59,272 nt of DNA. Origin: Eremomyces bilateralis CBS 781.70 (Eukaryota; Ascomycota; Dothideomycetes; Eremomycetales; Eremomycetaceae). Under the pieces are notes generated by a model. The model saw only the letters and a list, made by a program, of their open reading frames with translations, made no database searches and was not told where the DNA came from. Location of the stretch: contig NW_022985072.1 in assembly GCF_010015585.1 (NCBI RefSeq), positions 293,869 through 353,140 on the forward strand, in the 5' to 3' direction. Every line of letters begins with the position of its first letter. The first letter of the stretch is position 1. Below are positions 14,773-51,072 of this stretch, piece by piece. The position numbers and the translations under genes were made by a program.

Positions 14773-16907
14773 TCACTGCCTGCTCGCCGGTCTGCTTCTC
14801 CTGTTATTTTCCTTCATCGTCGCCTTACACTCATCGCAATACCACTCTGAAAGTCAAGTCAGCACCAGAATAGTCGAACATACCCATAGGTAACGAGAAA
14901 TAGAGAAAAACACTTACTAGTCGACTCCGTCGGCGCCTCCTTCAACCCCGCACACTTCAAATGGAACCACTCCCGCTTACAACTCTCGTTATCACACGCC
15001 ACCATTTCCCCATAGCTGACCTGGTTACAATAGCAATATCTCGGCTCGTCGCCATCCTCATCCTCTTCCTCTTCCACCTCTTCATGCGAATCCACCACCG
15101 CGGCTTCTGCCACCGGCGTTTCTTTCTCCGGCTCGCGTTCGTCCACCTCCATCCCGTCAGTGTCCCGTCGCTTCCGCGCATTTCGTCGCCGCGCGGTGGC
15201 AGCGAGCGGCATGTTAGACTCGGAGGACGCGTGGCTGCTGTTCGTGCTGCTGTTGTTCTTGTTGTTCGCGCGACCGGATGCACCTGCTCCGGTGGCGGGT
15301 GCGGCGCCACTGACGTCGGCAGGGAACGTCGAGGTCACGGGTGTAGAGGTTTTGGATGCACGAGTGCGCGTCGCGGTGGCGACGGCGGGGACGGAGGTGG
15401 GAGGTTCGGTTTCGGTCATTGGGACGTCGGCGGGGACGTCGGGTTCTTGCTCTTCGCGCTTGAAGGATTCGGGGGCGGTGGACGGAGCGTTGGCGTTGGG
15501 TATGGGGATGTGGGCGGCGGTGACGATGGGTGGAGACACGGTGTGAGAGGCGCCGTCGGGTTTGACGGGTTGGCTTGTGGGAGCGGTCAACGGGAGATTG
15601 GAGGCGGACGACGCAGGCCGATTGCGAGCCGCGTTATCGAGGGCGACCTGCGCCGATGTTTGCGAGTTCTGCCGTCCCCTTCCCACCGGACGACTCGATG
15701 TTGGCGCATCCTTGACTGCGAACGTTCCTTGGAGAGGGGACGACGCAGTTCGGGGGGATGCGGCCGTGCCAGCCGCCGCTCGTTTGCGAAGCGGTCCGGG
15801 TGCTTGCTTCGGCTTCTTCTTCGGCGGTTCCACCGCTGCAGGCTCACGAGGTGACATTGCACCTCCTCGAGGCCCCCCTTGCCCGCTGGTCGATCGCTCC
15901 ATTGCGGAGGCCATGGCGGCACCTTTCTCGGTTTTGCGTCGCTTGGCGGGCTGACTGGCCGCCGCACCTGTGATGCCCAACCCCACGACTTTATCGCCTG
16001 CATCTGCCGTTTTGCGGACGCGGCTATTCGTGGTCGCTTTTTTATGGAGGTATCGGTCATCGAAGTCGGAGTCTTGCTGCTGCTGCCCTCGGCCTTTCTT
16101 CGCGAGCAGGGTTCCTCGCCGCGCTTCGCTTCTCGACGCAGCCGCATCATCGTGGTATACGGCATAATTTGTGTTGCTAGCCCCCTCACGCCTTGGGCGT
16201 TCGTTCGCAACCGGCTTCTTGGCCTCTTTATTCTGCAATGCCCAGTGTGTGAGGCTTCCTAATCGCGCCTCTTCGCTGATCTCGTTCTCGATGTAGGGAA
16301 ATGAGCTGTCGATCCGCTCGAGTTGCCTGGAGAGCGTAACATTTGCCGCGCCGAGTACCGCGATCTTTTCATCCAAGATCGGAGCCATGTGATTGATCGC
16401 AAAGCACATCCGATGCATCAACTGTGTCCGGTTCATGTCTGTTCCAGGGTCCAAGGCCGGTTGTGGTTTGGCCGAGTTGAACAGCGTTTTCGCGATCGCT
16501 TGAGTATGCATCGGCGTCCCCGCAACGTCGACAGATCCATTGACGCTTGCATTTGCGCTCGGATTCACGCTTCCGTTGCTCGCACTGCCAGCCGCCGGCT
16601 GCGAGTATCGCGACATCGGAGCTGGGAGCTTCGTGATAGCCTCAGCAATCAGCTTCAGTTCATGATCCGGGCCGTATGATTTCGACTCGACTTCTTTCAG
16701 CATGGAGAAATGTTTCATGACTTCTTCGGGTAGCATGGCCACCGAGTTGGTGAAGTGGGTGATGGCTGGGAAGAAGCCAGGAGGATTATCCGGTCGCGGA
16801 GGCGGCTCGGCGGCCGCAGCTTGTCGTCCATAGTAATTCGCAGGCTTTGCAGCTGATGATCGAGCTACTCGAGTAGACAGGCGTCGATTGGGAGGAGCGG
16901 TAGCCAT
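14773..16907 (-). CDS. ING-family PHD-finger chromatin protein (Pho23/Yng2-like)
   Basis: Two exons (16907-14918, 14846-14773) give 687 aa. The 71 nt intron splits the PHD finger (AG...TAAGT donor after ESTS). The N-terminal ING helical region is visible: [20 protein letters not shown], then [16 protein letters not shown], and [21 protein letters not shown] long disordered Ala/Ser/Pro-rich middle (residues ~240-600) follows, and then the C4HC3 [32 protein letters not shown], and KWYCDECK after splicing. ING proteins read H3K4me3 with this finger inside histone acetyltransferase (NuA4/NuA3) or deacetylase (Rpd3L) complexes. Which complex cannot be decided here. At ~690 aa it is long, as is common for filamentous-fungal ING proteins. 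It is divergent from the coilin-like gene. Confidence 0.9.
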
Positions 16908-17465
16908 ATCGTCGTTCGGATGGCTCGTAACAGGTCGGAGGGTGGTGGGAAAGGAGGGCAGGCTCGTACGAGGGGAGGAGGTATCAAGGAAAAGAGTATT
17001 TCAGCCTTATCTACTTCACCCGCATACCTCTCAGTGGGGATTTGAAGCGGAATAGTCCAAAGACGATGGTAGGAGGGGACGGTGAAATTGAGGCTGTTGC
17101 GCATTGTTTCGCACAGCGGAGCCGATTCAAGTTCGAATGACGGAGATCGGTGGACGGGTGATCCTCGGATCATTGGACATGCAACAGGGAAGGCGCGAAC
17201 CGGACGGAGGTAGGGACGCGCGCTGCGCCACACACGCGCCACACACTACATTAGCCACGAGCCACACTTTCCCTCTCTGGACCCACAAAAACTTTCACGG
17301 TCCTCCTCCGCATCTCTCACTTGACCGCAACACCACTTCCGCGTCTATCAAACGACGCGCTTCAAGCTCCACCACGTTTCATACTTTATTGGCTATTGCT
17401 GGTTACAATCCGCAGAATTAGTAGCTCTATGGCCTAACACATTATTGCTATCTGCTTCGAGGAAG

Positions 17466-20400
17466 ATGCGGTTACGACTCAGGATCAGCAGGCACAAACT
17501 GCCGCCTGCGAATGTGATCTGGACCGTCGCAGAGGCAGCTAATGGAGTGCCATGTAGTGTTGTGGGCTTCTTAGAACGGGTCAACGAAATCATTCCTCTG
17601 GTGTCTAGCAGTTGGGGACTGGAGGATTATGTTGTGGAGCTGGACGGCTTTGAGTGTTTACATTTCAGGGCCGTGACGGAGGTCTTCAAAGACGAAGACA
17701 CGGTAATGTAAGTTCTGCTCAACATGCGTGTGAATCGCTTATTATGGGAAGATCTAACTTGTTATATAGTATCCGACCTTTAGAGACCTCAGAGTACCGA
17801 GCCAGACAATTTTCTGGTCGTCATCAGATCTCTGTCGCTGGCGCCCATCTGGTTGATGGTATTCCTTTCGGGCGACGGTACATTCGACAACCAAGGCGTC
17901 CTGCCCTCCACATTCCTTCGAGAAAGCACCGGCATCTTACGCCTACTGAAAGCGAAGAACTGACGATATCCGATGACGAACACGATGTGGCCGTTAGAGG
18001 AATGATTGAAGAGGGTACTGTTGATGAGACCGTGGAAAGCCATGAGGCTGCATCAACACTAGGAAAACGAAAGCGGCCGGATAGCCTCAAGTCTGTCCGA
18101 TTCGATACAGCTACTGCTCTATTCGGAAGCGAGGATGATGAGGACGAAGAAGACGATTTAGACTTCGAACTTGACTCCCCAGCCCTCACTGGGCTTTCCC
18201 AGAACTCCCAGAACTCCGAGAACGAACCATCATCACTTCTTTCGGAGACTGAAAGTGATCTCAGTAGCTCAGAATCAAGCGCTACAACGAGTTCTTCTTC
18301 AAGCTCGGACGATTCAGACGATTCAGACGATTCAGACGGATCACTTTCGAGCCTGGTTGCGAGTTTATCCAGGCGGTCACAGGCTGTGAGAGAGAAAATT
18401 CCCACGAACAATGCCGCAACCCCTACCGCCACGACATCGGCCAAATCGAAGACGCCTCAACAAATGGAGAAAGGTACAGTACTAAAGCAAGAGACCACGA
18501 AGATTCCGCAGCCTGTAGCGAGCACCCATACTCTGCCTGGAGCAGGCAAACCGGAGACTCAATCGCGGAATGCGCGAAAGCGAGATAGTCGAAGATTGCG
18601 CCAGCTCAAAGATGAAGGTCTCATTCACCCGGATGCTACCATCTCGGACATGAAGACAGGTGGGATTTGCAGACCACGCAATGAGATTGCCAATACCGCG
18701 CATACCACAAGTTCCATTACACCCTCTACTACTGGCCTCGAGTCTGACCCCGAAGAGAGATCAAAAACTGAACCCCACAAGGATATCGACGAAGAGAAGG
18801 AAACGGAGGGAATGAATGATGTGTCTGATGATGTCGCTTCTGAAGCTCCCTCTGAAGAGCCGATCGTTAAGCCACAAGATGCGGCCATGACTGTCGCTTT
18901 ATCGTCTAGAAATTCCGAGTCCAGCATAACGAAGAAGGATAAGAAGAAAGACAAGGCTACCGATATGGATGCAATCGAAGGGGGGGCGGAAGGAGTGAAG
19001 CCACAAGAGAGCAAATCTGCTCAAATACCCGAAGAAGCCGCTGGAGCGGATGGCAAAGGGAAGAAAAAGAAAAAGGACAAAAAGGAGAGGGCGAAGAAAG
19101 AGAAGTTCAAGCCCGATTCTCAGGAGAAACCAGCCGATCACAGTCCAACGGCTAATGGCAGCCTTGTAGCCGATGGCGTCTCAGTCGACGACAGTCACCT
19201 TCACGACGTTGCCGACAGCTCTGCTATGGCCATTTTGGAGCCGCAAATCGTTACACGGTCCAGGAAGAGTCGAGATGGGTCAACGCATGACTTCGAGCTA
19301 TCTGGCTCAAATGCCTCGATAGTCAATGGTGAGACACCCATCGAGCGCACTCCTCTTGTGACCCCTCTCTCCAAAGCAGTTGAAGCTGGCAAATCTTTTG
19401 CCGTACCAACCTCATCAAGCCCAGAAGAGTCCGCACCCAAGCGATCACGACTTGACATCGCCGGATCCCGCCGCCTCCTCTTCGGCTCCCTCGGCATCAG
19501 AACCCCTAAAACCCCCGAAGAAGAGAAAGAAGCGCGAGCGAAGCTTGCGGCCCAGGCGCAGCGACCTGGCCTCGCCAAACTCAAGCAAAAGCTCGACGTT
19601 GAGACAGCTGCTACAACCCCAGGTGCAGAATCCGAGCCGCCAGTGGACCCCCACTCGGACGAATGGAAGAAGAAAATCGACCTAGATGCTGTAGAGTGCG
19701 TGGATGAGGGAATCGAGCTGTCCACCCCGCCCTACCCGTTCAGGAACCTCTGGGATCCGCAATATGAGGGATGGCACTCGCAGAGCAAGAAATCGAAGAA
19801 ACGCAAGCGAAATACGCGGAACAGTTACGGGGACGATCACGACGCGTATGGCCCAGGGACTGGCCCAGGGACCGACTATGCAGATGAGCCCCCGGACAAC
19901 TCGCTTCACTACAACGACGATTACAATGACGACCACAACGAATACTACGACGACGCCGAGCCCGCACCACATCTGCAAGGACCCGCAGCGGACCACGAAG
20001 AAACAGTCAAGGTCACCCGCGTCCGCGGCGACTTCTCCATCCCCACGGTGCCACGACACGTCGCCAAGTATCCCGTCCTGAAGAAAGCCCACCTCTCCCC
20101 CGGCACCATCGTCCTCTTCAAGCAACTCGATTGCTCTGAAGCCACGAAATGGGCGCCCACAATCTCCGACTATCGCTCCGCGCGGATCGAGGCTGTCGAA
20201 GCCGATGGAACGGTGGTTCTCCGGCTCGCGGCGAACTACGTGCCGCGCACGACGAAGCGGTTCGTGGGTGGGAAGCGGGTGTTTAGTGGGTTTGAGGACG
20301 TGGAAGCGGATGAGGAAGAGGAGGAGGAAGATGAGGGGGTGAGAGAGGTGGTGTTTGAGGAGTTGTTGGAAGCGCGGTTGTTGAAGGGGGGGAGGGCGGT

Positions 20401-20551
20401 AGATGATGGGCTTGCACACCAGGGTAATGTACAGGTGCCTGGAGCTATGAGCGACAAGGCAGCGGTGACTGCTGAGGGCGACGAGGTTCCTATGGATGGC
20501 GCAGGAACAGATGGCATCGCGGTTACTCCGATGCTCGAGACAGCTGCGTGA
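17466..20551 (+). CDS. Coilin-like nuclear body protein (N-terminal coilin domain + C-terminal Tudor-like domain)
   Basis: Two exons (17466-17707, 17770-20551) join in phase to give 1007 aa. The ATG at 17466 is chosen because the protein then starts MRLRLRISRHKLPP, the usual coilin beginning; an in-frame ATG at 17445 is an alternative. Residues 1-~90 look like the coilin ubiquitin-like self-association domain, ending FKDEDTVIIRPLETSEYRAR. The middle is disordered, acidic/Ser-rich, then Lys-rich (KGKKKKKDKKERAKKEK). Residues ~845-920 resemble the coilin Tudor-like domain: LSPGTIVLFKQLD, then WAPTISDYRSARIEAVEADG, followed by an acidic stretch. Coilin scaffolds Cajal bodies, where snRNPs mature. 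That function is transferred from animals and plants and not shown here. Positional and motif similarity is my reading; no alignment was run. Confidence 0.78.
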
Positions 20552-30739: not shown

Positions 30740-31608
30740 GGTGGAGGTTTGAGGAGTTTGAGGAGTTGAAAATGTTCAATTGGAATCTAGAAGTATCAAT
30801 TCCCAGTTCTTAACTAAGATAACCACGATGTTCGATATTTAATGGGGGTGATAGCCTATGGTAAGCCGGGGAATGCAAGGAGGTCGGTCGTGCAGAGTAT
30901 ATATAGGTGTCTTAGATGGGCAGGAGGCGACTATAGAAGTTACGGTAGCACAGAGGAAGTCCCTCTATTACAAATCAAGCACCATACGACCGGTTACGAA
31001 AGAATTGCGAGATTTGAACCCTCCTTCTGGCTAAGAGGGTCTCGATAGATTGCCTCGGTAGGATAGACCAATGCTTTCCACGTCCACATCTCGGGCACAC
31101 TTCTCTTTTCGACCAGCTCCTCACAGCTTGAGCTGCTGGTGGTGGATTTCATCGGGTCCATTGCTCATTGTCCGGGCTATCCCCGAGTCCGATTTGTGAG
31201 TGGAACGCCTAGGACACGATTGGAAAGTTCTTAGCCCGAATAAGGCGATATAAAATGGACTGTTCAGCGTCAGATTGAGAAGCTGAAGACGAAATGGGGG
31301 GTATGACGTTCGTGGGGTGTGTGCTCAGGCTCAAATTGATGCCTTATATGCCTGTCCAGGTCAGCTGCAGTGTGCCAGCCAATCCGTTCCACTGCGGACA
31401 TTATTCGTTACGGACATTATCTTTGACCACATGCAGCACCATACATCAAAACTCCGTACAGATTACAGACACAGACGGTATTAAATATTAATCAGGTTAT
31501 TGTTAATATTAATGCCGATATATCCACCTTCTTAGGGAACCAATTATCAATCAACGATTTCTCCGCCGATCAAACCCCTCTCCATATGCTTACCAATCGA
31601 CCATCACA
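30740..31608. other. Divergent promoter region, 869 bp
   Basis: This lies between the MDR reductase (minus) and the Maf gene (plus). Around 31398-31425 a CGGACATTAT motif is repeated directly 16 bp apart. An AT-rich stretch with two TATTAAT-type motifs lies at 31480-31515. No gene is seen. Confidence 0.55.
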
Positions 31609-32475
31609 ATGTCCAACCCCATAGCGAAAGATCCACCACCACCCTATGTCTCGACAACCCCGACCATCCCCCCACCACGTCCTCATGGAGTTGCCCGTCC
31701 TCCCTTCCCCCTCGAGCTCCCCTCTATCGCCGCCCTCAAATCCCAGCGCGTCATCCTCGCCAGCGCCTCCCCCCGACGCAAGCAGATCCTCTCGCAACTC
31801 TTCCCCAAAGTCGAGATCATCCCGTCAACCTTCGCCGAGGACCTCCCCAAGTCGCTCGGCGGCTTCGACTACGTGCTGCAGACGGCCGTCGCCAAATGCC
31901 GCGAGGTGTACGGGCGGGAGATCGACAACGTGGAGGCGGAGCGGGAACGGGGGGAGGTCGGGGTGGTGATCGCGGCAGATACGATCGTGATGAGCGCGGC
32001 GGGGCAGATTTTGGAGAAACCGAGGAGCGAGGCGCAGCATGTGGCGGTGTTGAAGAGTTTACGGGATGAGTCGAGGATAGGCTCGGAGATGAATCCTGGC
32101 GCGGGGATTGCGGTGGGAGGGGCTGGTGCTGGATGGCATAAGGTCTATACGGCGCTGGCGATCATGAGGCCCATGACGACGGCGATGGATCCTGGATATG
32201 TGCTGACGACACATGTTGAGGAGACGTCCGTTAAGTTCGACCCGGATATCACGGATGACCTGATTGTGGCCTACGTCAAGACCCGGGAAGGCGCGGACAA
32301 GGCGGGTGGGTACGGGATGCAAGGGCTTGGAAGTCTTCTCGTGGAACGGATCGAAGGGTCTTGGGACAATGTTGTCGGCATGCCGCTCCGAGCGACATTG
32401 GTCTTGATCGAAAAGATCCTGGTCGATGAACAGGAAGAACTTGATGAAGCACGGGAACTCGAGGAAGAGTACTGA
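31609..32475 (+). CDS. Maf/Ham1-type nucleotide pyrophosphatase
   Basis: A single exon encodes 288 aa. After a Pro-rich leader of ~40 residues, the Maf fold starts with RVILASASPRRKQIL. It continues with IIPSTFAEDLPK, VVIAADTIVMSAAGQILEKP (the catalytic Asp lies in ADTIV), ETSVKFDPDITDDLIVAYVK and GGYGMQGLGSLLVERIEGSW. Maf proteins hydrolyse non-canonical or excess NTPs (dTTP, UTP or modified bases) to monophosphates, acting as house-cleaning enzymes in the cytosol. The final ~20 residues are acidic (EEQEELDEARELEEE), which is an extra tail. Confidence 0.94.
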   Translation: MSNPIAKDPPPPYVSTTPTIPPPRPHGVARPPFPLELPSIAALKSQRVILASASPRRKQILSQLFPKVEIIPSTFAEDLPKSLGGFDYVLQTAVAKCREVYGREIDNVEAERERGEVGVVIAADTIVMSAAGQILEKPRSEAQHVAVLKSLRDESRIGSEMNPGAGIAVGGAGAGWHKVYTALAIMRPMTTAMDPGYVLTTHVEETSVKFDPDITDDLIVAYVKTREGADKAGGYGMQGLGSLLVERIEGSWDNVVGMPLRATLVLIEKILVDEQEELDEARELEEEY

Positions 32476-35741: not shown

Positions 35742-35813
35742 GATAACCTCTCCATCTGCACCACCTTCATCTTCATCACCACACCACCTGGTTACTCATC
35801 GAACCCAACCCCA

Positions 35814-37465
35814 ATGGCGTATATCACCGACGGGCTCTCCCCCCCATTGAGCTCCGGTTCCTCCGCCCAGTCCCCGGAATACAACTCCTCCGACTCCTCG
35901 CTCCCCCCGGTCCCCCATTCGAGTCACCATCCGGTTATCCTCCTTCGCCCGGACGCCAGCCAGGCGTCCTCGACCGCCAAAACGGACCATGGCCTCCCCC
36001 TCGCCGCGTCCCGCGGCCCGCTAAACGGGACCTACCACATCCCTCCGCGGCCCAAGCCCGGCCGCAAGACCGTCAACGAGGTGCCGCCGACCAAGCGGAA
36101 GCAGCAGAACCGGGAAGCGCAACGGTCGTTCCGGGCGAGACGGCAGCAGCAGAAAGAACAATTGGAGCAGGATGCGGTGAATAATAAGAAAGAGCGGGAT
36201 GATTATGAGGGGCGGTTGGAGATGGCGAGTCGGCAGTTGACGCAGCAGGAGCAGGTGATTCATGGGCTGCAACAGCGGTGCGAGGCGGCGGAGGGGTCGG
36301 CGGGTCGGATGAATGGAGAGCTGGTGGAGATGCGAGCGAGGTTGGTGGAGGCGGAGAAGACGGTCCGGGGGAAAGATGAGGTGATAGAACGGTTGAGACG
36401 GCAGATTCAGATGGGTTCGAATGGCTCATCGAACGCTGCGGCTCACCGATCGTATTCAGTCGATCAGAGTTATGTCGGACAGACGCAATATTCATCGGAG
36501 CATCGACGGTCGGAGACTACAAGCTATCCCGGCTTCAGCTCTACACCATCACAGACACCGTCCTCAGATGCCACGGAGTTGCCGGCCGACGCCGCTCCTT
36601 TCAAACCCTCGCCGGCGAAACAATCCAAGCGGGCTCCAGATGGCTGCGATAACTGCACCGAAGACCAGTGTCCCTGCGTCGAGCAATTCACAAACGTCAC
36701 CTCCAAATCCGCCGACGAGATCACGACCGACACGGACATGACTAACAACTTCTCCATCCCCTCCATCCCCTCCATCCTCACTCCCCAAGCATCCACCGAC
36801 CCCTCCACCACAATTCCCACCCCTACCTCAACCTTCGAAGACCGCGAAATCGACTTCACCAACTTCCTTAAGCCCGCCCCCACCGCACCCCCCACCGATC
36901 CCTCCTCCCCCTGCGGCTTCTGCACCGACCCCCAAAACTGCCTCTGCACAACCCCTGCCACCACCCCTGCTACCACCACCCCCATCTCCCTCCCACCCNN
37001 NNNNNNNNCCCACCCCCGAAAAAACCCCGCCGCCAACCTGGTACCTGCCCACAATGCCAGGCCAACCCCGAACAAAAGCGCTTCTGCGAAGAACTCTCCC
37101 GCCGCCGCGCCCCGTTGTCCATTCGCGAGATGACCAACCCCTCCGACGTCCCCCCGCACGCGAAGCGCCCGCGCCTGTCCGCCGCCGCCGCGCCACCCCC
37201 AGACGCCACCCCTTGCGCCACCGAAACCAAGCGCGGAACGACGCTCGACGGCGACGGCCGCGAGGTGAAGATCACGTGTGCGGAGGCGTTCCAGGTGTTT
37301 CAGTCGTATCGGGAGACGGAGATGCGGGAGCGGGAGCGGGAAGAGGAGGAGGAGGAGAAAAGGAAAGGGTTTTCGGCGTTTGAGATTGGGGTGGGGGAGG
37401 CGTTGATGGCGATGGCGGCCATGAAGTCGGGGAGGAAGGGGGATGTGGAGATGGGAGATGGGTGA
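35814..37465 (+). CDS. hapX: HapX-like bZIP iron regulator with Hap4-type CCAAT-complex-binding motif (interrupted by assembly gap)
   Basis: The start is MAYITDGLSPPLSS. Near residue 75 the Hap4-like motif IPPRPKPGRK occurs. The bZIP basic region TKRKQQNREAQRSFRARR follows directly with its coiled coil. This adjacent arrangement is diagnostic of HapX proteins, which join the CCAAT-binding complex to repress iron-consuming genes in starvation and activate them in iron excess. Cys-rich iron-sensing regions follow: CDNCTEDQCPCVE, SPCGFCTDPQNCLC, and after the gap GTCPQCQANPEQKRFC, then ITCAEAFQVF. Ten N at 36999-37008 interrupt the frame. The 5' and 3' parts are in different frames, so the true gap length is not 10. 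The stop at 37463-37465 belongs to the 3' frame. A related Fcr3-type bZIP is the main alternative. Confidence 0.8.
36999..37008. other. Assembly gap (10 N) inside the hapX-like coding region
   Basis: Ten undetermined bases lie in a C-rich, Pro/Thr-coding low-complexity stretch (poly-CCAC/CCC context). The reading frame before and after the gap disagrees by two positions, so the real missing length is unknown. Confidence 0.98.
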
Positions 37466-38890: not shown

Positions 38891-40417
38891 TCAGTGTTGA
38901 GTCTCAACTGCTTGGTTTGAGACCTCCGTGTTTTCAGCGTCATGCATGACAAATTTTGACGGCCGGAAGATCTGGAGTTGGTTGTCCTCCGCGCAGGCGG
39001 CTAGGAGCCACGGGTCGTTCTTATTCCAGCTGAAGTCCGCGACACGGTTGGTGAAGCCGCCGTGCATGAAGAAGCTGTTGATTCTCTAGTCAGCGATGTG
39101 GACTGAAGGGGTGAAGGGGATGACTTACAGCTCCGGGGCCCCGTCTTCCGCTTCTTCTGCAGTTTGCTCATTTCCGATTCGGTTGATATCCCACATGATC
39201 AGTCGTCGATCGTCACTACTGCTAGCGAACAGATTAGGCATCACCGGATTCCACTCCAGCTTCATAACTGCATCTTTATGGCCTTCGCAGCACTCGCTCA
39301 TCTTGTTCAGGTACCGCAGATCCCAGATACCGACCGTGCTGTCTGCCGAGCCGGTCAATACGATCGGATCCCAGGTCGGGTGGAAAGCCAAGCAGTTGAT
39401 CGGCTTCGCGTGCGCTTCTTTCTTGAAAAGTGCAGGCTTGTCGGCTGACTGTCGGGTGTCAATCACCTGGAATGTCAAGTCGTCCGAGACCGACCCTATC
39501 CACGACTTGTGGATCGGGTGGTATTGAACATCGTTGACAGTTGCCGAATGGTTTCGATACGTCGTCTTCGGCTTGATTGTAGAGGCGCCCTTGGTGTAGC
39601 CACCTTGCAGGTCCCAAACGCGGACGGTGCTGTCCTCGGTACCCGTCACAAGATGGCCTTCATCATGAGGACTCCAAGCAAGTCCGAACCCTTCCCTTTG
39701 GTGCCCGACGAGCTGCAAATCCATTTGGTTTTCTTCGGGAGATTTCGGTTCCAGAGGATGCTTAGTCCGGTCATAGATGAGCGCGCGACCAGTGCTGTCC
39801 ATCGTAGCGATGATGTTCGCGTTCTGCGGCTGATATCGTGCCTTGTTCACTTCCCCGGGATGGTTCATCTTCTGGATGATGTTGAAGGTGAACGGCTTCC
39901 TGGCGTTGCCGTGACCGCCGACTTCCCCGGATTGTTCATTGAAGTCGGTGATGCTTGGCTTGCCGGGTTCCGGGATTTCAGTCTGTGCGATCTGGAGATA
40001 GTTATTCGTACCATCCGAGGTGTTTGTGCCGATGAGCATTCGATGCTGGTAGAGTCCATCCCCTCCAGGTGCTCTGGACCGTATTAGATAGTCCTTTGCT
40101 TCGATGCCGCATCGAACTTACTCCTTCCTGTCTGGCAGCCATTGTGTGGTAAGAGATGGCCACTCAAGAGCACGGCTGGTGAATTTGTTAGCCTATACTA
40201 TTCTCGAACTGATATGACTGCTGGGGAAGCTCACGCATAGATGAGGTCATAAAGGAGGACGGAGTTCTTCTTCCATATCTTGTACTCCTCATTGATGATC
40301 TTCTGTTCCCGGTATGGATCGTCTCTGATAGAGTTAGGGTCGATCTCCTCTAGAATATGGTCAGGACTAGTCATGTAGATATCGATCGGGATGCGCACCA
40401 TCATATCCTCCTTCCAT
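38891..40417 (-). CDS. hat2: Histone acetyltransferase type B subunit 2 / RbAp46-48-like WD40 histone chaperone
   Basis: Five exons (40417-40399, 40349-40235, 40175-40125, 40073-39129, 39074-38891) give 437 aa. The first 19 nt exon gives MEGGYD joined to EEIDPNS. Without that splice the frame would start MMVRIPIDIYM at 40404, which suits the family less well. The N-terminal histone-binding helix EEYKIWKKNSVLLYDLIYAR and LEWPSLTTQWLPD are RbAp48/Hat2/Msi1 hallmarks. WD repeats follow: GHQREGFGLAWSPHDEGHLV, TYRNHSATVNDVQYHP, AHAKPINCLAFHP, GHKDAVMKLEWNP, and FFMHGGFTNRVADFSWN after the last intron. The protein binds H4 and serves Hat1 and probably other chromatin complexes. It shares its promoter with XRN1. 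Confidence 0.93.
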
Positions 40418-41062: not shown

Positions 41063-44000
41063 ATGGGTGTCCCAAAATTCTTTCGCTGGCTCTCGGAGCG
41101 GTATCCCACCATCTCACAGCTGATCGCGGAGAACCGAATCCCCGAGTTCGACTGCCTTTATGTATGTCGCCTCACCGTATGGGATGGCCATGACTGACTT
41201 GAGGGGACACAGCTCGACATGAATGGAATCATCCATAACTGCACGCACAATGATTCCGACTCGCCAACTTTCCGCATGACGGAAGACAAGATGTTCATCG
41301 CGATTTTCAACTACATCGAGCATCTGTTCGGAAAGATCAAGCCTAACAAGCTGTTCTTCATGGCCATCGATGGCGTGGCCCCTCGCGCGAAGATGAACCA
41401 GCAGCGTGCTCGCCGATTTCGTACCGCTTTGGACACCGAACTTGCTCGCGAGAAAGCAATCAGAGAGGGTCTAGAGATGCCGACGGAAGAGGCATTCGAC
41501 AGCAATTGCATTACGCCTGGGACAGAGTTCATGGCAAAGCTTACGCAACAACTCAAATATTTCATCAACAAGAAGGTTTCGGAGGACAAAGACTGGCAAG
41601 GCGTCGAGGTCGTCCTTTCTGGTCATGAAGTTCCCGGTGAAGGGGAGCACAAAATCATGGAGTACATCCGACTGGCAAAGTCGCAACCGGACTATGATGC
41701 CAATAGACGGCATTGTTTGTATGGTCTTGACGCCGATCTGATCATGCTTGGCTTGTTGAGCCACGATCCGCATTTCTGTCTGCTTCGAGAAGAAGTTACA
41801 TTTGGCCGGTCGAACCAGAAGAAATCCAAGGAATTGGAGCACCAAAACTTCTTCCTTCTTCACCTCTGCCTTGTTCGCGAATATCTGGAGCTCGAATTTC
41901 AGGCTCTGAAAGAGCCCGGAGCATTGTCCTTTAACTTCGACATGGAGCACATTATCGATGATTTCATTCTCATGGCGTTCTTCGTCGGCAACGACTTTTT
42001 GCCGAATCTTCCCCATCTTCACATCAACGAAGGTGCACTGTCACTCATGTTCAATGTCTACAAACAAATCCTACCCAAGGCGAAAGGGTACATCAATGAA
42101 GGCGGGACTATCAACATGGAGAGACTCCTGCTTCTTCTTGATGAATTGTCCAATGTGGAATATCGGTTCTTCGAGTCGGAAAACTCGGATGCATCGTGGC
42201 TGAAAGGAAAGCAGAAGATGACCGAAGAAGAATTTGCGCAGCGCTCCAAGAAGGGTCGGAAACTTGTCATCTCCCCGGAGCAGAAGGTCTTGTTGAAGAA
42301 GATCAAGAAGTACGTCATCAGCAGTCAGGAGAATCCAGCGGAAGCTGGCTCCTACGACCTGCCTGCAACTCTTCCTGCACGCGATCGCGAGTTCGTAAAA
42401 CAACTCGCAGACAGCTTGCACCTGCAATGGACGACTGTGGAGGAGGAATCCGGCGATCGGCATCTGCAGCTCAACCTCCCTCCGAGGCTCGAAGGAGACG
42501 AGGATGATGAGGCTGAAGCGGATAATGAGGAAGCATCTCTGGCCCTTTTCAGCGTCTTCCGAAAATACGAAGGCGCGAAAGTCGTGGACATGAGCATGGA
42601 AGACAATCAAGCCGAATTGGAGAAGAAATACCAAGAGGAGTTCGTTAAGTGGAAGAATTCTCATTACCAATCCAAATTTGGTTGGGGTCTCGACAATGAG
42701 GAAGAGTTGAGGAAGCTTACGGAGAACTATGTTCAAGGACTTCAATGGGTCCTCTTCTACTATTATCGAGGAGTTGCTTCATGGCCGTGGTTTTACGCCT
42801 ATCATTATGCGCCTATGATTTCGGATGTCAAGAAGGGTCTTGGAGCCGACATGAACTTCAAGCTTGGTCAGCCATTCCGACCTTACCAGCAGCTGATGGG
42901 CGTCCTTCCGGATCGCAGCAAGAAGATTGTTCCGGAAGCATATCATGACTTGATGACGAACAAGGATTCTCCTATTATCGATTTCTATCCTCGCGACTTT
43001 GAACTGGATATGAACGGAAAGAAGCAGGAGTGGGAAGCGGTGGTTAAAATCCCTTTCATTGATGAGAAACGACTTCTTCCCGCCATGGCAACGAAGGAGA
43101 ATTTGCTCACTGAGGACGAGCGAGCGAGGAATGGTTTCGGCGTTTCTTTGAAGTTCACTTATAGTCCGGATTTGGACTATGTCTATCCCTCTTCCCTGGC
43201 CGGAATCTTCCCGGATTTGGCGCATTGCAAGTGCATTGAAAACATCTTCGAGCTGCCAACGATGGATGGCTTGGAGGTTTATGTCGGCCTGGTTGAAGGC
43301 GTTCAGCTAGGAGCCGAGGCGCTTGCTGGGTTCCCGAGCTTGTATACCCTTCCTTGCACCGGTACACTGGGATTCCATGGCATTACCGTGTTTCAACAGG
43401 AGTCCCGGAATGAGAGCATGGTGGTTACTGTGTCTGATTCCGACGAACGCGGAAAGGCTTCAACGGCAAAGGAACGCCTTGGGAAGAGCGTATTTATTGG
43501 ATATCCCTTCCTCCAAGAAGCGAAGGTAGTCAAAGTTACCGATGAACTTTTGAGCTACACCCTGAATGCGAATGGGCAGTTGATGCAGTCTCCACTGAGC
43601 CCGAGGGAAATGGAGAATTTCCAGAAGAAGTCGGACAGGGTCGAGGCAATGTACAGCAAGAAGCTGGGCGTCGTCATCGGCCCGGTGGAGTCTATTGTCC
43701 ATGTGGAACCCCTCCGTGGTCTGAAGAAAACTCCCGATGGGGCTACAGTCAAAGACTACGCCGAGGTTCCAGGCATTGAAACGGAGTATGCGGCCCAAAC
43801 CGTCGTGGAATCGGTGTTCAGCGAAGATCAGCGATTCCTCGAGAAAGCAGCCGTTCCATTCGAGGAAGAGTTCCCCATCGGTGCCCGCGCTTTCTTCCTT
43901 GGCGAGATGGCATACGGCCGACCGCTCGAAGTTGCGAGCCACCTCTCTGCGACCCATGCGGAAGTGCTGGTCCTGACGCAAAAGGGCAAGGAGCAAGAGT

Positions 44001-45457
44001 TTGGGCGTGACATCGTCCGTATAGCGGAGCAACAAACGAGATACACGCCGTCGTTCGCGGTTGCGCGGATGCTTCATCTTAGTCCCCTGGTGTTGAGCAG
44101 GCTGACGTCGGCATTTTCGGTCAACTCCAGTGGACTCCGCCTGAACTTGGGGCTCAACTTGAAGTTCGAGTCCAAGAAGCAAAAGGTCCTTGGATACTCT
44201 CGCAAATCAACCTCCGGGTGGGAGTACAGTCCAAAGGCAGTCGAGCTGATCCAGCAATACATGATCCGATTCCCGGAGTTCATAGCTGGAGTGAGTGCGA
44301 ACCCGAAGGGCGATCTCTACGAGGACACCGACTTCTACCCTCAAGATGTCGCTGCGGCGAAAATGAAAGAGATCGGCCAATGGCTGAAGTCCATTGAAGC
44401 CAAGAGCTTTGAACGTGTTTCCCTGGAAGCCGAGCAGCTCGACTCCGATGTTGTGGCACAGATTGAGCAAAAGGCGGACCAGATCAGCCAGAACTCGCCT
44501 CCGTTCGAACGGAAGCGCATCAAGAGCGTTCCTCGCAATGCCATCCTCAAGCCATCCGACGCGGAGCAACGCATCGGTCCTCAGCGTTTCCAACTCGGCG
44601 ATCGTATCGTCTACGTCCTTGACTCCGGTCGTGTCCCCATTGGTCTGAAAGGAACTGTGGTCGGCATGACCCGCACGTCGCGGACGATGTTCCTGGACGT
44701 CGTGTTCGATCATACATTCATGTCCGGATCGTCCCTCGGTGAGCGGTGCTCGCCATTCCGCGGATCCACCGTTCCAGCCGAGAGTGTCCTAAATCTCACC
44801 GACAAGCAAGCCATCGTTTACACGTCCGCTTCCTCTGCTCGAAATCCAAACCAAGCCGCCGAACCGCTTACGGTGCCTGGCTACTACGGTGCTCCTGCCG
44901 CCGCCGGTGGTGCAGGCCAATACCGCGCCGCCCCATCACCCGCGCCGCTTCGCGGATCGTTCCGCGGTGCCTTATCTCGAGGCAACAACGGCACGCCTCG
45001 AGGCGGTGCCCGAGGGCAGTTCCAACAATCCCTCCCCTTCCGCACCGCCGAGCAAAACACCCCGCCCGCCAACGAAAACGGCACCGTGTCCAACAGCCGC
45101 GGCCGCGCCGGCTACGCCCCCAGAAACTTCCCCAACTCCTCGCCCGCCCACCCCGGCCAAAACGGCCACATCCAGCGTGGCCGCGGCCGCGGCGGGCTCG
45201 GCTCGGGGTCCGCGCCGCATGTCAACAACACGCAGGGATTCGTGGTCACGGATTTGGATAACCCGGCGGAGGGCATCGTGCCGAACAATCCGAACTTTCA
45301 GCCGCAACAGTATAACTCGGTGCCGCCTCCGTCGACGCTGCATCCGAATCAGGGGCGCGGTCGCGGGGGGTTTGGCGGGGGGAGGGGGAGGGGGTTTAAT
45401 GGGGGAAGGGGGAGGGGTGGGCCGAGGGGTGGGAGAGGGCGTGGACAGGCGCAGTAG
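41063..45457 (+). CDS. xrn1: 5'-3' exoribonuclease 1 (Xrn1/Kem1)
   Basis: Two exons (41063-41161, 41213-45457) give 1447 aa. The start MGVPKFFRWLSERYPTISQL is the canonical XRN beginning. The 51 nt intron splits the first catalytic motif, which continues LDMNGIIHNCTH. The acidic XRN_N active-site set is visible: FMAIDGVAPRAKMNQQR, HEVPGEGEHKIMEYIR, LYGLDADLIMLGLLSH and FVGNDFLPNLPHLHI. The central domains and the D1/KOW/SH3-like part (ARAFFLGEMAYGR, GLKGTVVGMTRTSRTMFLDV) identify Xrn1 rather than nuclear Rat1/Xrn2. The last ~170 residues are RGG/Gly-rich (GRGRGGFGGGRGRGFNGG). Xrn1 degrades decapped mRNA in the cytoplasm and P-bodies. Confidence 0.97.
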
Positions 45458-46419
45458 GGTTCCAACTCGGACGCGTTTGAGAACTAGTGGTGGAAATTCT
45501 TGCGAAGAGGTGGTTGGCAATGTCTACAGTAGTGAGGCTGGCTCTCATGAACGGTCTACTAGTTAAGGCATATTGAAAGGACTGGCCGACTGCGGATCGA
45601 AGACAGTATCGATCGCATGAGTATGTCGTGGGATCGGCGATGCCGACTAAGTCGGTCAGATTCAGAAACTATCGATGTTTCTGCTAATGCCACCGCCACG
45701 GAAAATTTGCGAAAATTTGCGAAAAGCGGTAGATCTCGTGATGATACTTCATGCTCTGCTTCGTCTACATGCGCCGAGACTCCGAAGACGGAAGGATTGC
45801 CTACTCTCTATCGCAACAGATCTCGAGTCGTTCAACAACTTCACGACCAACCGAGTATAGTCACCCCAAGTGGTCCCGAGTAAGAATGTTCAAAGACGCC
45901 GCAATGTCGCCGGTACTCTGTTTCCACTGCATGTCCTGAGCATACCATCCACCTTGAATGTTCGCCAAGACGTCTTCATCCCCATCTCCGCACTCTTCAT
46001 CGCGCCCATGGTTGTCAGGGCCGATGGCAGCCTTCAACGACAGCTCGCATGTGGTCTGGCGTGAAGATTTGCCTTCGATGACTATGTAGATGATACCTGA
46101 ATCCATCGACCAAGTAGAATAGGTAGCACGACCGGGAAGACCGGTTCGTTTTAGACAAAACTCGCGGGACAGGTGACCACAGTTGCGTCGATCGAGCTCC
46201 AACCTGGCACTCCTTCATTGTACCTCAACCGAACCGCCTTCACCCTCTATGACCACGTTTGTATCCATCTTTTTCCAACTGTATAACGACAAGCGGACCG
46301 CAGCGTTGTAGCCAAACGCAGTATTCGCCGCCCCCGACACGAGGGACCATCCGACGATTGACGTCAGAACCGCTAGCCATATTAAGGGACCAAACTCTCC
46401 GCACGACCACCCTTCATTA
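45458..46419. other. Intergenic, ~960 bp, with one doubtful small minus-strand frame
   Basis: It contains the 3' flank of XRN1 and the upstream region of the histidine kinase. A minus-strand frame at 46202-45861 is open for 113 codons. Its first in-frame ATG gives about 82 residues with fairly natural composition (QTTCELSLKAAIGPDNHGRD, then NIQGGWYAQDMQW). No family or splice evidence supports it, so it is not called as a gene. Confidence 0.45.
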
Positions 46420-49400
46420 TTGCCTGCAGTGAGTGCAGCATGTCGCCCACCTCTTCAATCCAGTACGCCATTATTCAATCTAGCGCAACCCGTGCTTGAT
46501 AAGGCTTTGGACTATTCGCGAAAGCGGTCGGCCCACCTTCGCTTTCCTGCGTACGACCCGAGCTCCGGTGCGACATCACAACCCGGCCCCGAACCCCCAG
46601 TAAAGCGCTGCAAACGCCCTCTCTCGTGGCCTTATATCACCAACGACCTTGAAAATCCATCTCCGCCTGCCTCACTTCCCCCGAGCGCGCACCAGCCGCC
46701 CTCGTCCCTATTATTCCCATCCCGCCGCGGACCAAACCCCCTGCGTCCACCCCTCCCGCCGCGCTTCTCCAGCTCGGAGGCGGCTGTGAGGATGCTTAGC
46801 AAGACACACGAAGATGAGAGTGTCATAAAGACGGTCACATTAGCCCGCGGCACCTTCAGCGGACAAAGCCCCCCGGGGATCGGCCCGTCGAGTGCTGCGA
46901 GGAGCACAACGGATCGGTCGAGCTTCGGAAGCATATCGAAGTCCTCCTCGTCGCCGGAGACTGGAGATGGCGCGCGGACACTTACTCAGATCGGGATACT
47001 AGAGTTGATGGAACAGGATACGAGACCGACCTTCGTGGTGGATTTGGCCGAAGCGAGGAACTACAATTCGGGTCCGCTGCACGTCATTTGGGCAAACTCG
47101 GCCTTATCAAGAGGTTGCCCGGGACTGCTGGAAGCCGTTTCGGGCGAGCTACGAGAATCGTCAAATGGCAGCGATTTACCTCACCCAAAAGACTTCGGGC
47201 AGTTCAAATCATGGACGCTGTCGGCTGTGATGATCGGGGATGGTCTGGATCCTCTGCAGCCAACCATCTATTTCAAAGACATGACATGGTCGTGCTCGAC
47301 GATTCGGAAACGGTTGCGTGTTGTGAGCGCGCTCAAGGTCTTACCGAGGATACAGTCCAGAGCAGCATCAGCAAGAGTATCGCCAGCGATCGGGCATCAT
47401 TCTCGTCCTTTTATGGAGCCTCTTCGGAGCATTTCTTCCGCCACCAACTTAACCACCGTCCTCCAATCCGCCGAAGAGCCCCAAGACTACTTCGGTGGTG
47501 CAGGCTCTCTAGCAGCTACCGTATGCCTTTCACCACCTCCCTCCGAACCAAAAACATCCTCCCCCCACGAAATACCTAGCTCTATAATCGCCTCGGAGCC
47601 TACTTCACAACCTCACTCAACCGCGACCGAAATCTCGAAAAGCCCTCGATCTCCCAGAACGCCTGGTTCCGACAACATACACCCTATCAGGACACTAAAA
47701 AACCAGATATCCTCTATCTTCGAGACCCACCCCTCCTTAACGAATGAGTGCGTACTAAGTGCCGCTGCCTCTGCCGATATTGACTCCTTTACTAGCCCCT
47801 CGTATGGGACCTTCGGTGCGAACCTCCCCTCCGGTAATCGAGACGATACGAGTGCTCTACAAGACGAAGACAACATTGGCGATATCGGCTTCTTCGACTG
47901 GACTCGACTGTCCCCGACAGTGTCACTGCCCACACATATCCAGTTCGCACGCGATCGGGACTGGGCATCCACCAGCCTCGGTCCGATGGACTTTTGGCCA
48001 CCGGACTTAAGGCAGATGTGCAATCTTATCATGGCAAGCCCTCATCCCGCCGCAATGTATTGGGGAGAAGACCTTGTCGCGATTTATAACGAAGCATACG
48101 TCCTACTTGCCGGCCAGAAACACCCGGAATTGATGGGCCAGAGCTATAAAGCCGCCTGGGTCGAGATTTGGGACGAGGTCAAGGATGTTTTCCACAGCGC
48201 TCGAGACACCGGGCAAGCGACAATGAAGGACGATGATTGTCTATTTATCATGCGGAATAGCTTTCTAGAGGAGACTTACTTCTCTTGGTCGATCATCCCC
48301 ATGGTTGGTAGCGATGGGACTGTGACCGGTCTTTACAACCCGGCGTTTGAAAAAACCAGACGAAAAATCGCTGAACGACGCATGTTCACGCTTCGGGAAG
48401 TTGGTGAGCGAACGGCGACAGCGAGGGATGTCAAGTCCTTCTGGGGACTGGTTACGGAAGCGCTTGCCACAAACGAACGAGACACGCCATTCGCACTCCT
48501 CTACTCCGTTAGCGACGAATCCGATCGAGAGAGTAGTAGCATCCACTCCAACAGCGCCATGGAAGACAAACATTGCTTTCTTGAAGGCGCACTTGGCGTA
48601 CCAGACGGACATCCGTGCGCTCCGAAACAAATCGAGTTGAAGAGCGGAATGGAGGGGTTTGGGCCATTCTTCCGTGAATGCATGAACACCGACAAGCCTG
48701 CTCTACTACACATTGCCTGGGATACGTCGGTGAAGAATGGCGATGGCGCTGAAATTGGCGAAGAGCGGTTTGGAGAAATTCCGGCGGCAACGATGGAAGG
48801 GATTCAATGGAGAGGATTTGGCGATCCCTGCCGGTCGGTGGTGGTGTGTCCTGTGCATCCGACGACTGGCGAACTGATCTTGGGCTACCTTGTGCTCGGG
48901 GTCAATCCTCGTCGACCGTTCGACGATGATTATAGCCTATTCCTACAGCTTTTGAGTCGACAATTGGCCACTTCTCTGGCTTCGGTTGTCCTTTTCGAAG
49001 AAGAGATCAGAAGAGGGAAAAAGGCAGCAAAAATTGCCGCGTTGGATCACATCGAGCTATCCCAACAACTTGCTGCTCGGACACAAGAAGCAAGGGATAT
49101 CGAGACGAGGTTCACGCGCATGGCGGAGTTCAGTCCTGTGGGACTTTTCATCGCGAACTCCAATGGGAACGTCGTTTACTGCAACGACGCCTGGTTTGAG
49201 ATCACCAAGGTTCCGAAAGAGGAGGATTGCTTTGATAAGTGGATGGATTCCGTCAAAGAGGAGGACCAGGAACGAATCCGGGGATTATGGAAGCAGCTGG
49301 TCGAGAACAAGACGGCTGTCACTGCCGAGTTTCGATTCAAAGCGCCCTGGCAGGACCAGAAGGGCAACACGACGGACGGCACTTGGGTACTATTCAGCGC

Positions 49401-51072
49401 GTACCCCGAACGATATGCCGCGGATTGCGTGGGATATCCGGCTGGAAGCTTGAAGAGCATCTTCGGTGTGATAACCAACATCAGCCAGCAGAAATGGGCG
49501 GAAGATTTCCAGAAGCGCAAGATGGAGGAGGCCGTCGAGCTGAAACGGCAACAGGAGAACTTCATCGACGTGACCAGTCATGAGATGAGGAACCCGCTAA
49601 GTGCGATCCTGCAATGCGCCGACGAAATCCAATCAACCTTACATGGTTTCATCGAGCAGGAAGACCGCGTGATGGACAAGCATGTTGTGCAGGACAACAT
49701 CGATGCGGCGGAGACGATCGCACTTTGCGCCATGCACCAGAAGAGAATTGTGGACGATATCTTGACGTTCTCCCGATTGGACTCTGGATTGCTCATCGTG
49801 ACTCCTATCGACGTCCAACCGTTAACCATCGCTCAGAAAGCGGTCAAGATGTTCGAAGGCCAGCTACAGAACGCCGACATCCACATGAACTTCATCATCG
49901 ATCCATCGTACCACAAACTGGGCATCGACTGGGTTAAAATGGACCCCAGCCGCGTCCTCCAAATCTTCATCAACCTCATCACCAACGCCATCAAATTCAC
50001 ATCCGAAGGCCCCCAACGCACCATCACCCTCACCATCGCCGCCACCACCGAGCCGACGCGCGACCGCGGCCGGGAGGTGCCGTCCAAATCCTCCCCTGAC
50101 TTGCCCACCTGGGTCGATTACTTCCCGACCCGCTCCCAGCGGCCTGACATCACCGACAGCAGCCCGGACTGGGGCACTGGCGCGCCCGTGTACATCCACT
50201 TCGCCGTGCAGGACACCGGAAAAGGCCTCACGGAAAACGAGAAGAAGATGCTATTCCTCCGCTTCAGCCAGGCCAGTCCGCGCACGCACGTGCAGTACGG
50301 CGGGTCGGGCCTGGGACTCTTCATCTCCCGCGAGCTGACCGAGCTACAGGGCGGCGAGATCGGCGTCGCGAGCGAGGCGGGCAAGGGTAGCACGTTCGCG
50401 TTCTACATCAAGGCGCGGCGCTGTGAGAACGCGGTTGAGGAGATGGTCGTTCCGGTGCCGCTGGCGGTCGATCGGGAGGGTAGCCAGTCGAGGGCGGGGA
50501 GTCGCGGGCCAGATAGCGGGTCGACGTCGAGAGTGCGGCTGGATGGACTGTCACCCGCGCGGGAGCCGGCGTCGAGGAAGAGCTGGCACGTGCTGATCGT
50601 GGAAGATAACCTGGTCAATCAGCGGGTACTGGTTAAGCAGTTGCGAAACAAAGGGCTGGCGATCTCCACGGCGAACCATGGTGGCGAGGGGCTCGAGGTG
50701 CTGAAGAAGAGTAAACTTTGGCACAGAAATCGGACGAAGTCCGAGCGGGAAGCGCCGCATATTGATGTGGTGCTCATGGATCAGGAGATGCCGGTCATGG
50801 ACGGGTTAGAGGCCACGAAAGCGATTCGAGAGTTGGAAAGGAAAGGGGAGCTGCTCGGACATGTGCCGATCATTGCGGTAACGGCAAATGCGAGGAGCGA
50901 ACAGGTGAAGGCTTTGTTGGATGCGGGATCAGTGAGTCTCCCTTCTTGATACATGGTCGTGTTGCAGTTACTAACCCAAGCGTAGGACGATGTCGTCTCC
51001 AAGCCATTCCGGATTCCGGAACTCATACCGAAGATTGAGGAGCTGGCCGACAAGTTTACGAGGGGGGTTTGA
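46420..51072 (+). CDS. Large PAS-containing hybrid sensor histidine kinase
   Basis: The main exon is open from 46420 (no in-frame ATG; the first one is at 46789) to 50931. A 54 nt intron with a TACTAAC branch follows, then the last exon 50986-51072, for about 1530 aa. Coherent sequence upstream of 46789 implies a short upstream start exon that I could not locate. In order: a disordered N-terminus, PAS/GAF-like sensory regions (RPTFVVDLAEARNYNSGPLH; the WASTSLGPMDFWP block), and a PAS at ~900-1030 (MAEFSPVGLFIANSNGNVVY). The kinase has H-box DVTSHEMRNPLSAI, N-box NLITNAIKFT, and G-boxes DTGKGLTENEK and GGSGLGLFISRELT. The receiver has VEDNLVNQRVL, phospho-acceptor Asp in DVVLMDQEMPVMDG, and KPFR encoded after the intron. 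It should autophosphorylate and feed an Ypd1-type phosphorelay. The stimulus is unknown. Confidence 0.92.

Follow-up and report, generated by a model that had tools for sequence, protein, structure and literature searches.

A two-exon gene in a 59,272-nucleotide stretch of DNA from Eremomyces bilateralis CBS 781.70 (contig NW_022985072.1; hereafter 'the window') is likely to encode the coilin of a filamentous fungus, that is, an ortholog comparable to the fission-yeast protein Mug174 that would scaffold Cajal-like bodies. Coilin is the scaffold protein of Cajal bodies, the nuclear sites at which splicing RNAs undergo maturation. Such bodies are little known in fungi of this kind, but they, or structures like them, may exist in moulds. 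The C-terminal end backs the assignment well, the N-terminal end in outline. The assignment draws upon a C-terminal domain for which the coilin-type Tudor family (Tudor_Coilin) is the sole Pfam family reported, and upon an order of parts (a first domain that begins at residue 1, then a long disordered region, then a Tudor-type domain at the C-terminus) that is the order found in coilin and Mug174. A fuller reading is favoured by a narrow lean: that the Pfam family DUF7357, which occupies the N-terminus, is the version of the coilin N-terminal domain (Coilin_N) found in fungi, so far unrecognised as such; that proteins combining DUF7357 with Tudor_Coilin are the coilins of moulds; and that a coilin devoid of an RG box builds Cajal-like bodies there, with snRNP maturation being scaffolded without the docking of SMN on methylated RG repeats.

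Gene structure and the disordered middle

The gene is real and its two-exon model is sound. An in-frame stop lies upstream at 17322, and the next in-frame ATG is the start at 17466; removal of the intron joins DEDTV to IIRPL and yields a single frame of 1007 codons, followed by a stop codon ending at 20551. Because the match to DUF7357 begins at residue 1 and crosses the junction (residues 1-132 corresponding to profile positions 1-131 of 131), both the start and the splice are supported. The limits that a sequence-only reading had given to the gene are thus those of a complete two-exon gene, and the MRLRL start, DEDTVIIRPL, and the C-terminal LSPGTIVLFKQLD...WAPTISDYRSARI that it pointed out are all present in the translation. 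The two terminal blocks that it described also exist, but are larger than it had claimed, with Pfam matches extending over residues 1-132 and 855-954. Across the window, no Rfam family was found at gathering scores and no tRNA gene was found by ARAGORN.

Table 1. Features of the candidate coilin gene and its divergent neighbour (positions within the window).
Feature	Position	Strand	Details or basis
Candidate coilin gene	17466..20551	+	2 exons, 1007 residues
Exon 1	17466..17707	+	residues 1-80 plus two bases of codon 81
Intron, 62 nt	17708..17769	+	GTAAGT...TATAG, CTAAC branch-like motif
Exon 2	17770..20551	+	stop codon included
N-terminal domain DUF7357 (PF24054), residues 1-132	17466..17923, intron-interrupted	+	Pfam profile
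Middle region, long, charged and mostly disordered, residues 133-834	17924..20029	+	composition, FoldIndex
Putative coilin-type Tudor domain, residues 855-954	20090..20389	+	Pfam Tudor_Coilin, below curated cut-off; pairwise tests
Divergent neighbour, ING-like with PHD-like finger	14862..16907	-	Pfam, under curated cut-offs

The long, charged and disordered middle proposed from the letters is borne out by composition and by FoldIndex, save for two stretches of positive FoldIndex within it (559-576 and 585-639); elsewhere, positive values are found near the ends of the protein, centred on residues 26-98, 831-907 and 957-981. Residues 133-320 consist of 22% aspartate plus glutamate and 30% serine plus threonine, and basic runs are found at 180-183, 512-516 and 757-761, so that a long disordered middle with basic runs, one of the coilin traits tested, is present. 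The RG box of vertebrate coilins is absent, the whole protein containing two isolated RG dipeptides (at 157 and 833). That box is not a family-wide feature, a different octamer having been suggested as its analogue in plants; the middle of Arabidopsis coilin is itself described as having basic stretches that are partly RNA-binding (PMC3539977). Two motif-like islands, SRRLLFGSLGIRTPK and AVECVDEGIELSTPPYPFRNLWDPQ, are found in the middle at about 19466-19762 on the forward strand; the piece that holds them matches no Pfam family at E <=1, and they may correspond to partner-binding motifs.

The two terminal domains

At the C-terminus, Tudor_Coilin (PF23086) was matched with E values of 5e-4 (whole protein), 3.8e-5 (a 132 aa piece) and 1.5e-5 (a 128 aa piece), with the alignments covering profile positions 14 to 103 or 104 of 105. 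The scores of these three whole-domain constructs (20.7-25.6 bits) all fall below the curated cut-off of 27. While the matching stretch contains a run of glutamates, two shorter pieces from which the acidic loop and the last strand had been left off still matched Tudor_Coilin alone (E 0.012 and 0.013), and Tudor_Coilin was matched by none of seven shuffled copies and not by the one reversed copy. Two of the shuffled copies did match families other than this one, with scores of 14.3 and 13.1 bits, the former being the best score of any control to any family.

Pairwise comparisons were made with a Tudor fragment of human coilin whose letters were checked against Pfam, where it scored 61.2 bits to Tudor_Coilin. 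BLASTP aligned the candidate's C-terminus to this fragment with 26% identity over 99 residues (E 0.001), and the local score was reached by 6 of 5000 shuffles. In global alignment, 1 of 3000 shuffles equalled the observed score under each of three settings; a second set of four settings gave 0, 5, 0 and 1 of 5000. Two further nulls, consisting of windows from 30 coding genes (chosen from a single stretch of E. coli DNA with 46 features) and from ten chosen other frames of the same window of DNA, gave no equal score in 3042 windows (each of four settings) and 5483 windows (each of three settings), respectively, although in both cases the windows overlap heavily and their effective numbers are far below these counts. 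When the fragment was scanned along the gene, residue 835 was the best of 885 places. The most telling likeness is that of the human SPDVSDYKEGRI with APTISDYRSARI, together with the closing VFWKELIDPRLI with VVFEELLEARLL. The sequence-only reading's claim of a coilin Tudor domain is therefore supported, though under the cut-off, by a sole matching family and by concordant pairwise tests. It had held that the coilin idea would fall if neither end matched, or if another Tudor or SH3 family matched better; a profile search of both ends gave Tudor_Coilin at the C-terminus (E 1.5e-5, below cut-off) and left Coilin_N unmatched, and the coilin idea survives.

The N-terminus presents a different picture. 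Residues 1-132 belong to DUF7357: the match spans the full profile (positions 1-131 of 131) and scores 173.7 bits (E 2.2e-51), far above the curated cut-off of 27. Pfam assigns DUF7357 no function, and no paper naming it was returned from the open-licence literature. No match to Coilin_N (PF15862) was found at E <=1 for three constructs, one of which was the entire protein, nor at E <=10 for a fourth, N-terminal construct. The claim that this end, too, is that of a coilin is therefore no more than suggestive: Pfam gives DUF7357 and leaves Coilin_N unmatched in all four constructs, and a pairwise signal depends on the trimming of the ends.

That signal was obtained with an N-terminal fragment of human coilin that itself gives 123.9 bits to Coilin_N. 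The candidate's MRLRL resembles the RLRL near the start of human coilin. In trimmed global alignment, the observed score was reached by 1, 5 and 0 of 3000 shuffles (three settings) and by none of 5853 windows of the ten other frames in any of three settings (windows that again overlap heavily, and thus represent a far smaller effective number), and a trimmed scan of the human N-terminus along the gene placed residue 1 best of 922 places. With the ends untrimmed, it was reached by 73, 1892, 72 and 383 of 5000 shuffles and by 27, 1000, 25 and 121 of 3302 E. coli windows (four settings each, the windows being similarly overlapped and their effective number far lower), and the local score was reached by 924 of 5000 shuffles (BLASTP E 0.18). 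Because the signal shrinks or vanishes once the ends are left untrimmed, the link to Coilin_N is not counted as established, and a likeness to human coilin that appears only with both ends trimmed is regarded as suggestive. Ubiquitin, used as a control, gave zero signal with either N-terminus (the gene's or the human one), which says only that a generic ubiquitin fold is not what the alignment detects. In the trimmed alignment, R2 and D78 lie opposite human R8 and D79, which are reported as self-association residues, and the position of human R36, reported to mediate contact with Nopp140, is occupied by S31 (PMC9556525).

Two mismatched comparisons served as cross-controls for the local scores: that of the candidate's C-terminus with the human N-terminus was itself equalled by no more than 173 of 5000 shuffles, an illustration of how local scores of this size can come about; for the other the figure was 4907 of 5000. 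Structure prediction by AlphaFold2 from single sequences gave mean pLDDT values of 38.2 (residues 835-953) and 45.4 (the exon-1 part of the N-terminus, for which the input comprised 80 exon-1 residues and one residue read across the junction that is absent from the spliced protein). A Foldseek search with the low-confidence C-terminal model gave a best E of 1.1, with none <=0.001, and these low-confidence models neither support nor oppose the coilin reading. Structural work on the human coilin domain is referred to in PMC3539977; in PDB sequence searches with the candidate's two domains and the two human fragments, coilin was not listed. Pattern searches for relatives gave 87 matches by the C-terminus in viral contigs and 68 by the N-terminus in bacterial and archaeal genome contigs, none of which was confirmed.

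Fungal coilins and competing explanations

The idea of a fungal coilin is itself recent. Mug174 of Schizosaccharomyces pombe was proposed as a coilin homologue on the basis of structure at a time when a fungal orthologue was described as unidentified (PMC9666668), and in 2024 was shown to be the coilin of that yeast (PMC11347179). The latter study reported that Mug174 forms condensates in vitro, that its contact with Tgs1 requires its N-terminal part, and that it is found in association with U2 and U5 snRNA, while TMG capping and normal splicing depend on it. Human coilin co-localised with Mug174, yet gave no rescue of a mug174 deletion. Like the candidate, Mug174 comes from a fungus and combines a disordered part with two distal domains, and a weak likeness to coilin has been reported at both of its ends (PMC11347179, PMC9666668). 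Human and plant coilins share with the candidate the order of parts, a C-terminal Tudor-like domain and basic runs in the middle (PMC3539977), and differ from it in that its N-terminus matches DUF7357 rather than Coilin_N, its RG box is absent and R36 is not kept. Accounts of other fungi vary: a 2026 review describes budding yeast as being without coilin and SMN orthologues (PMC12937744), and a 2025 paper states that Aspergillus nidulans lacks canonical Cajal bodies while allowing for analogous structures (PMC11964246), in contrast to a 2022 review in which Cajal bodies are said to be present in all eukaryotes (PMC9530788). No coilin of a filamentous fungus was described in the titles or opening lines of abstracts among the matches listed from the open-licence literature, and the portions of PMC6930019, PMC9470157 and PMC12458480 that were available added nothing on a mould coilin.

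Three other explanations have been weighed against that of a coilin ortholog. The protein might be a nuclear scaffold in which an unrelated N-terminal DUF7357 accompanies a coilin-like Tudor domain, and hence a non-orthologous factor acting, for example, in chromatin or rRNA processing; the strong DUF7357 match beside zero match to Coilin_N, and the lack of robustness of the N-terminal pairwise signal in local and untrimmed global tests, are what such a protein would display. This is judged unlikely, since the order of parts is that of coilin (PMC3539977) and Mug174 (PMC11347179, PMC9666668), and the global alignment, once trimmed, speaks for Coilin_N (1, 5 and 0 of 3000 shuffles, 0 of 5853 windows, and residue 1 as best place). 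Far less credible still is the notion that the C-terminal match arose by chance or composition in an unrelated disordered fungal protein: a library-wide E of 1.5e-5, the absence of Tudor_Coilin matches among all 8 shuffled or reversed copies, the persistence of a match to that family alone after removal of the acidic run, and the concurrence of several pairwise nulls all weigh more heavily than a score below cut-off and a glutamate run within the matched stretch.

A subtler alternative, which overlaps the preferred explanation on ancestry and differs from it on function, holds that the protein is a coilin by descent that no longer builds Cajal bodies here, having assumed some other nucleolar or RNA-surveillance role. 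Human coilin's failure to rescue the mug174 deletion (PMC11347179) implies that fungal coilins can differ in function, and the absent RG box (the protein having only two RG dipeptides), a residue other than arginine at the place of human R36, and the description of A. nidulans as being without canonical Cajal bodies, albeit with analogous structures allowed (PMC11964246), are all compatible with such a change. It is nonetheless considered improbable in view of what is reported for Mug174: its condensates are Cajal body-like, human coilin co-localises with it, and it promotes TMG capping (PMC11347179).

If the gene does encode a coilin ortholog, DUF7357 is probably the N-terminal domain of fungal coilins; while Mug174 was already known as the coilin of fission yeast, this link between DUF7357 and coilin is newly proposed here. 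The N-terminal domain would then be the equivalent of Coilin_N, ubiquitin-like and serving self-association, and together with the linker might self-associate, by analogy with Mug174, to form a nuclear condensate that would gather new U snRNPs and the cap enzyme Tgs1, concentrating the latter on newly made U snRNAs, as has been reported for Mug174. The Tudor-like domain may dock snRNPs or other RNA-processing partners; recruitment of SMN through methylated RG repeats would not be expected, because the RG box is absent. A mould coilin, if true, would provide a tractable system in which to ask what role Cajal bodies play, would assign a function to a Pfam family that lacks one, and would fit the view that budding yeast has lost coilin, as opposed to fungi lacking it altogether.

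Neighbouring genes in the window

The divergent partner gene that the sequence-only reading had called an ING chromatin reader is present and looks ING-like, but its profile match is weak and under the cut-off: residues 158-203 give a partial match to Pfam ING (23.4 bits against a cut-off of 23.9, E 9.2e-5), and a piece of the same protein matches four PHD-type zinc-finger families, each below its cut-off (PHD, 21.9 bits against 24). A second chromatin-related gene in the window (39125-40117, reverse strand) encodes a WD40 protein in which an RBBP4/CAF1C histone H4-binding segment scores 26.1 bits against a cut-off of 22.7; the protein is possibly, as a guess, Hat2-like.

Several additional genes were recognised on the forward strand. 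A Maf-like protein is encoded at 31513-32475 (E 3e-44), and a frame at 35742-37133 appears bZIP-like by eye and displays XXXX residues, which indicate a short stretch of undetermined bases. The gene at 41198-45457 encodes the domains of an Xrn1 5'-3' exoribonuclease (XRN_N, XRN_M, XRN1_D1, XRN1_D2_D3 and SH3_12, above cut-off), and that at 46312-50949 encodes a hybrid histidine kinase with PAS, HisKA, ATPase and response-regulator domains.
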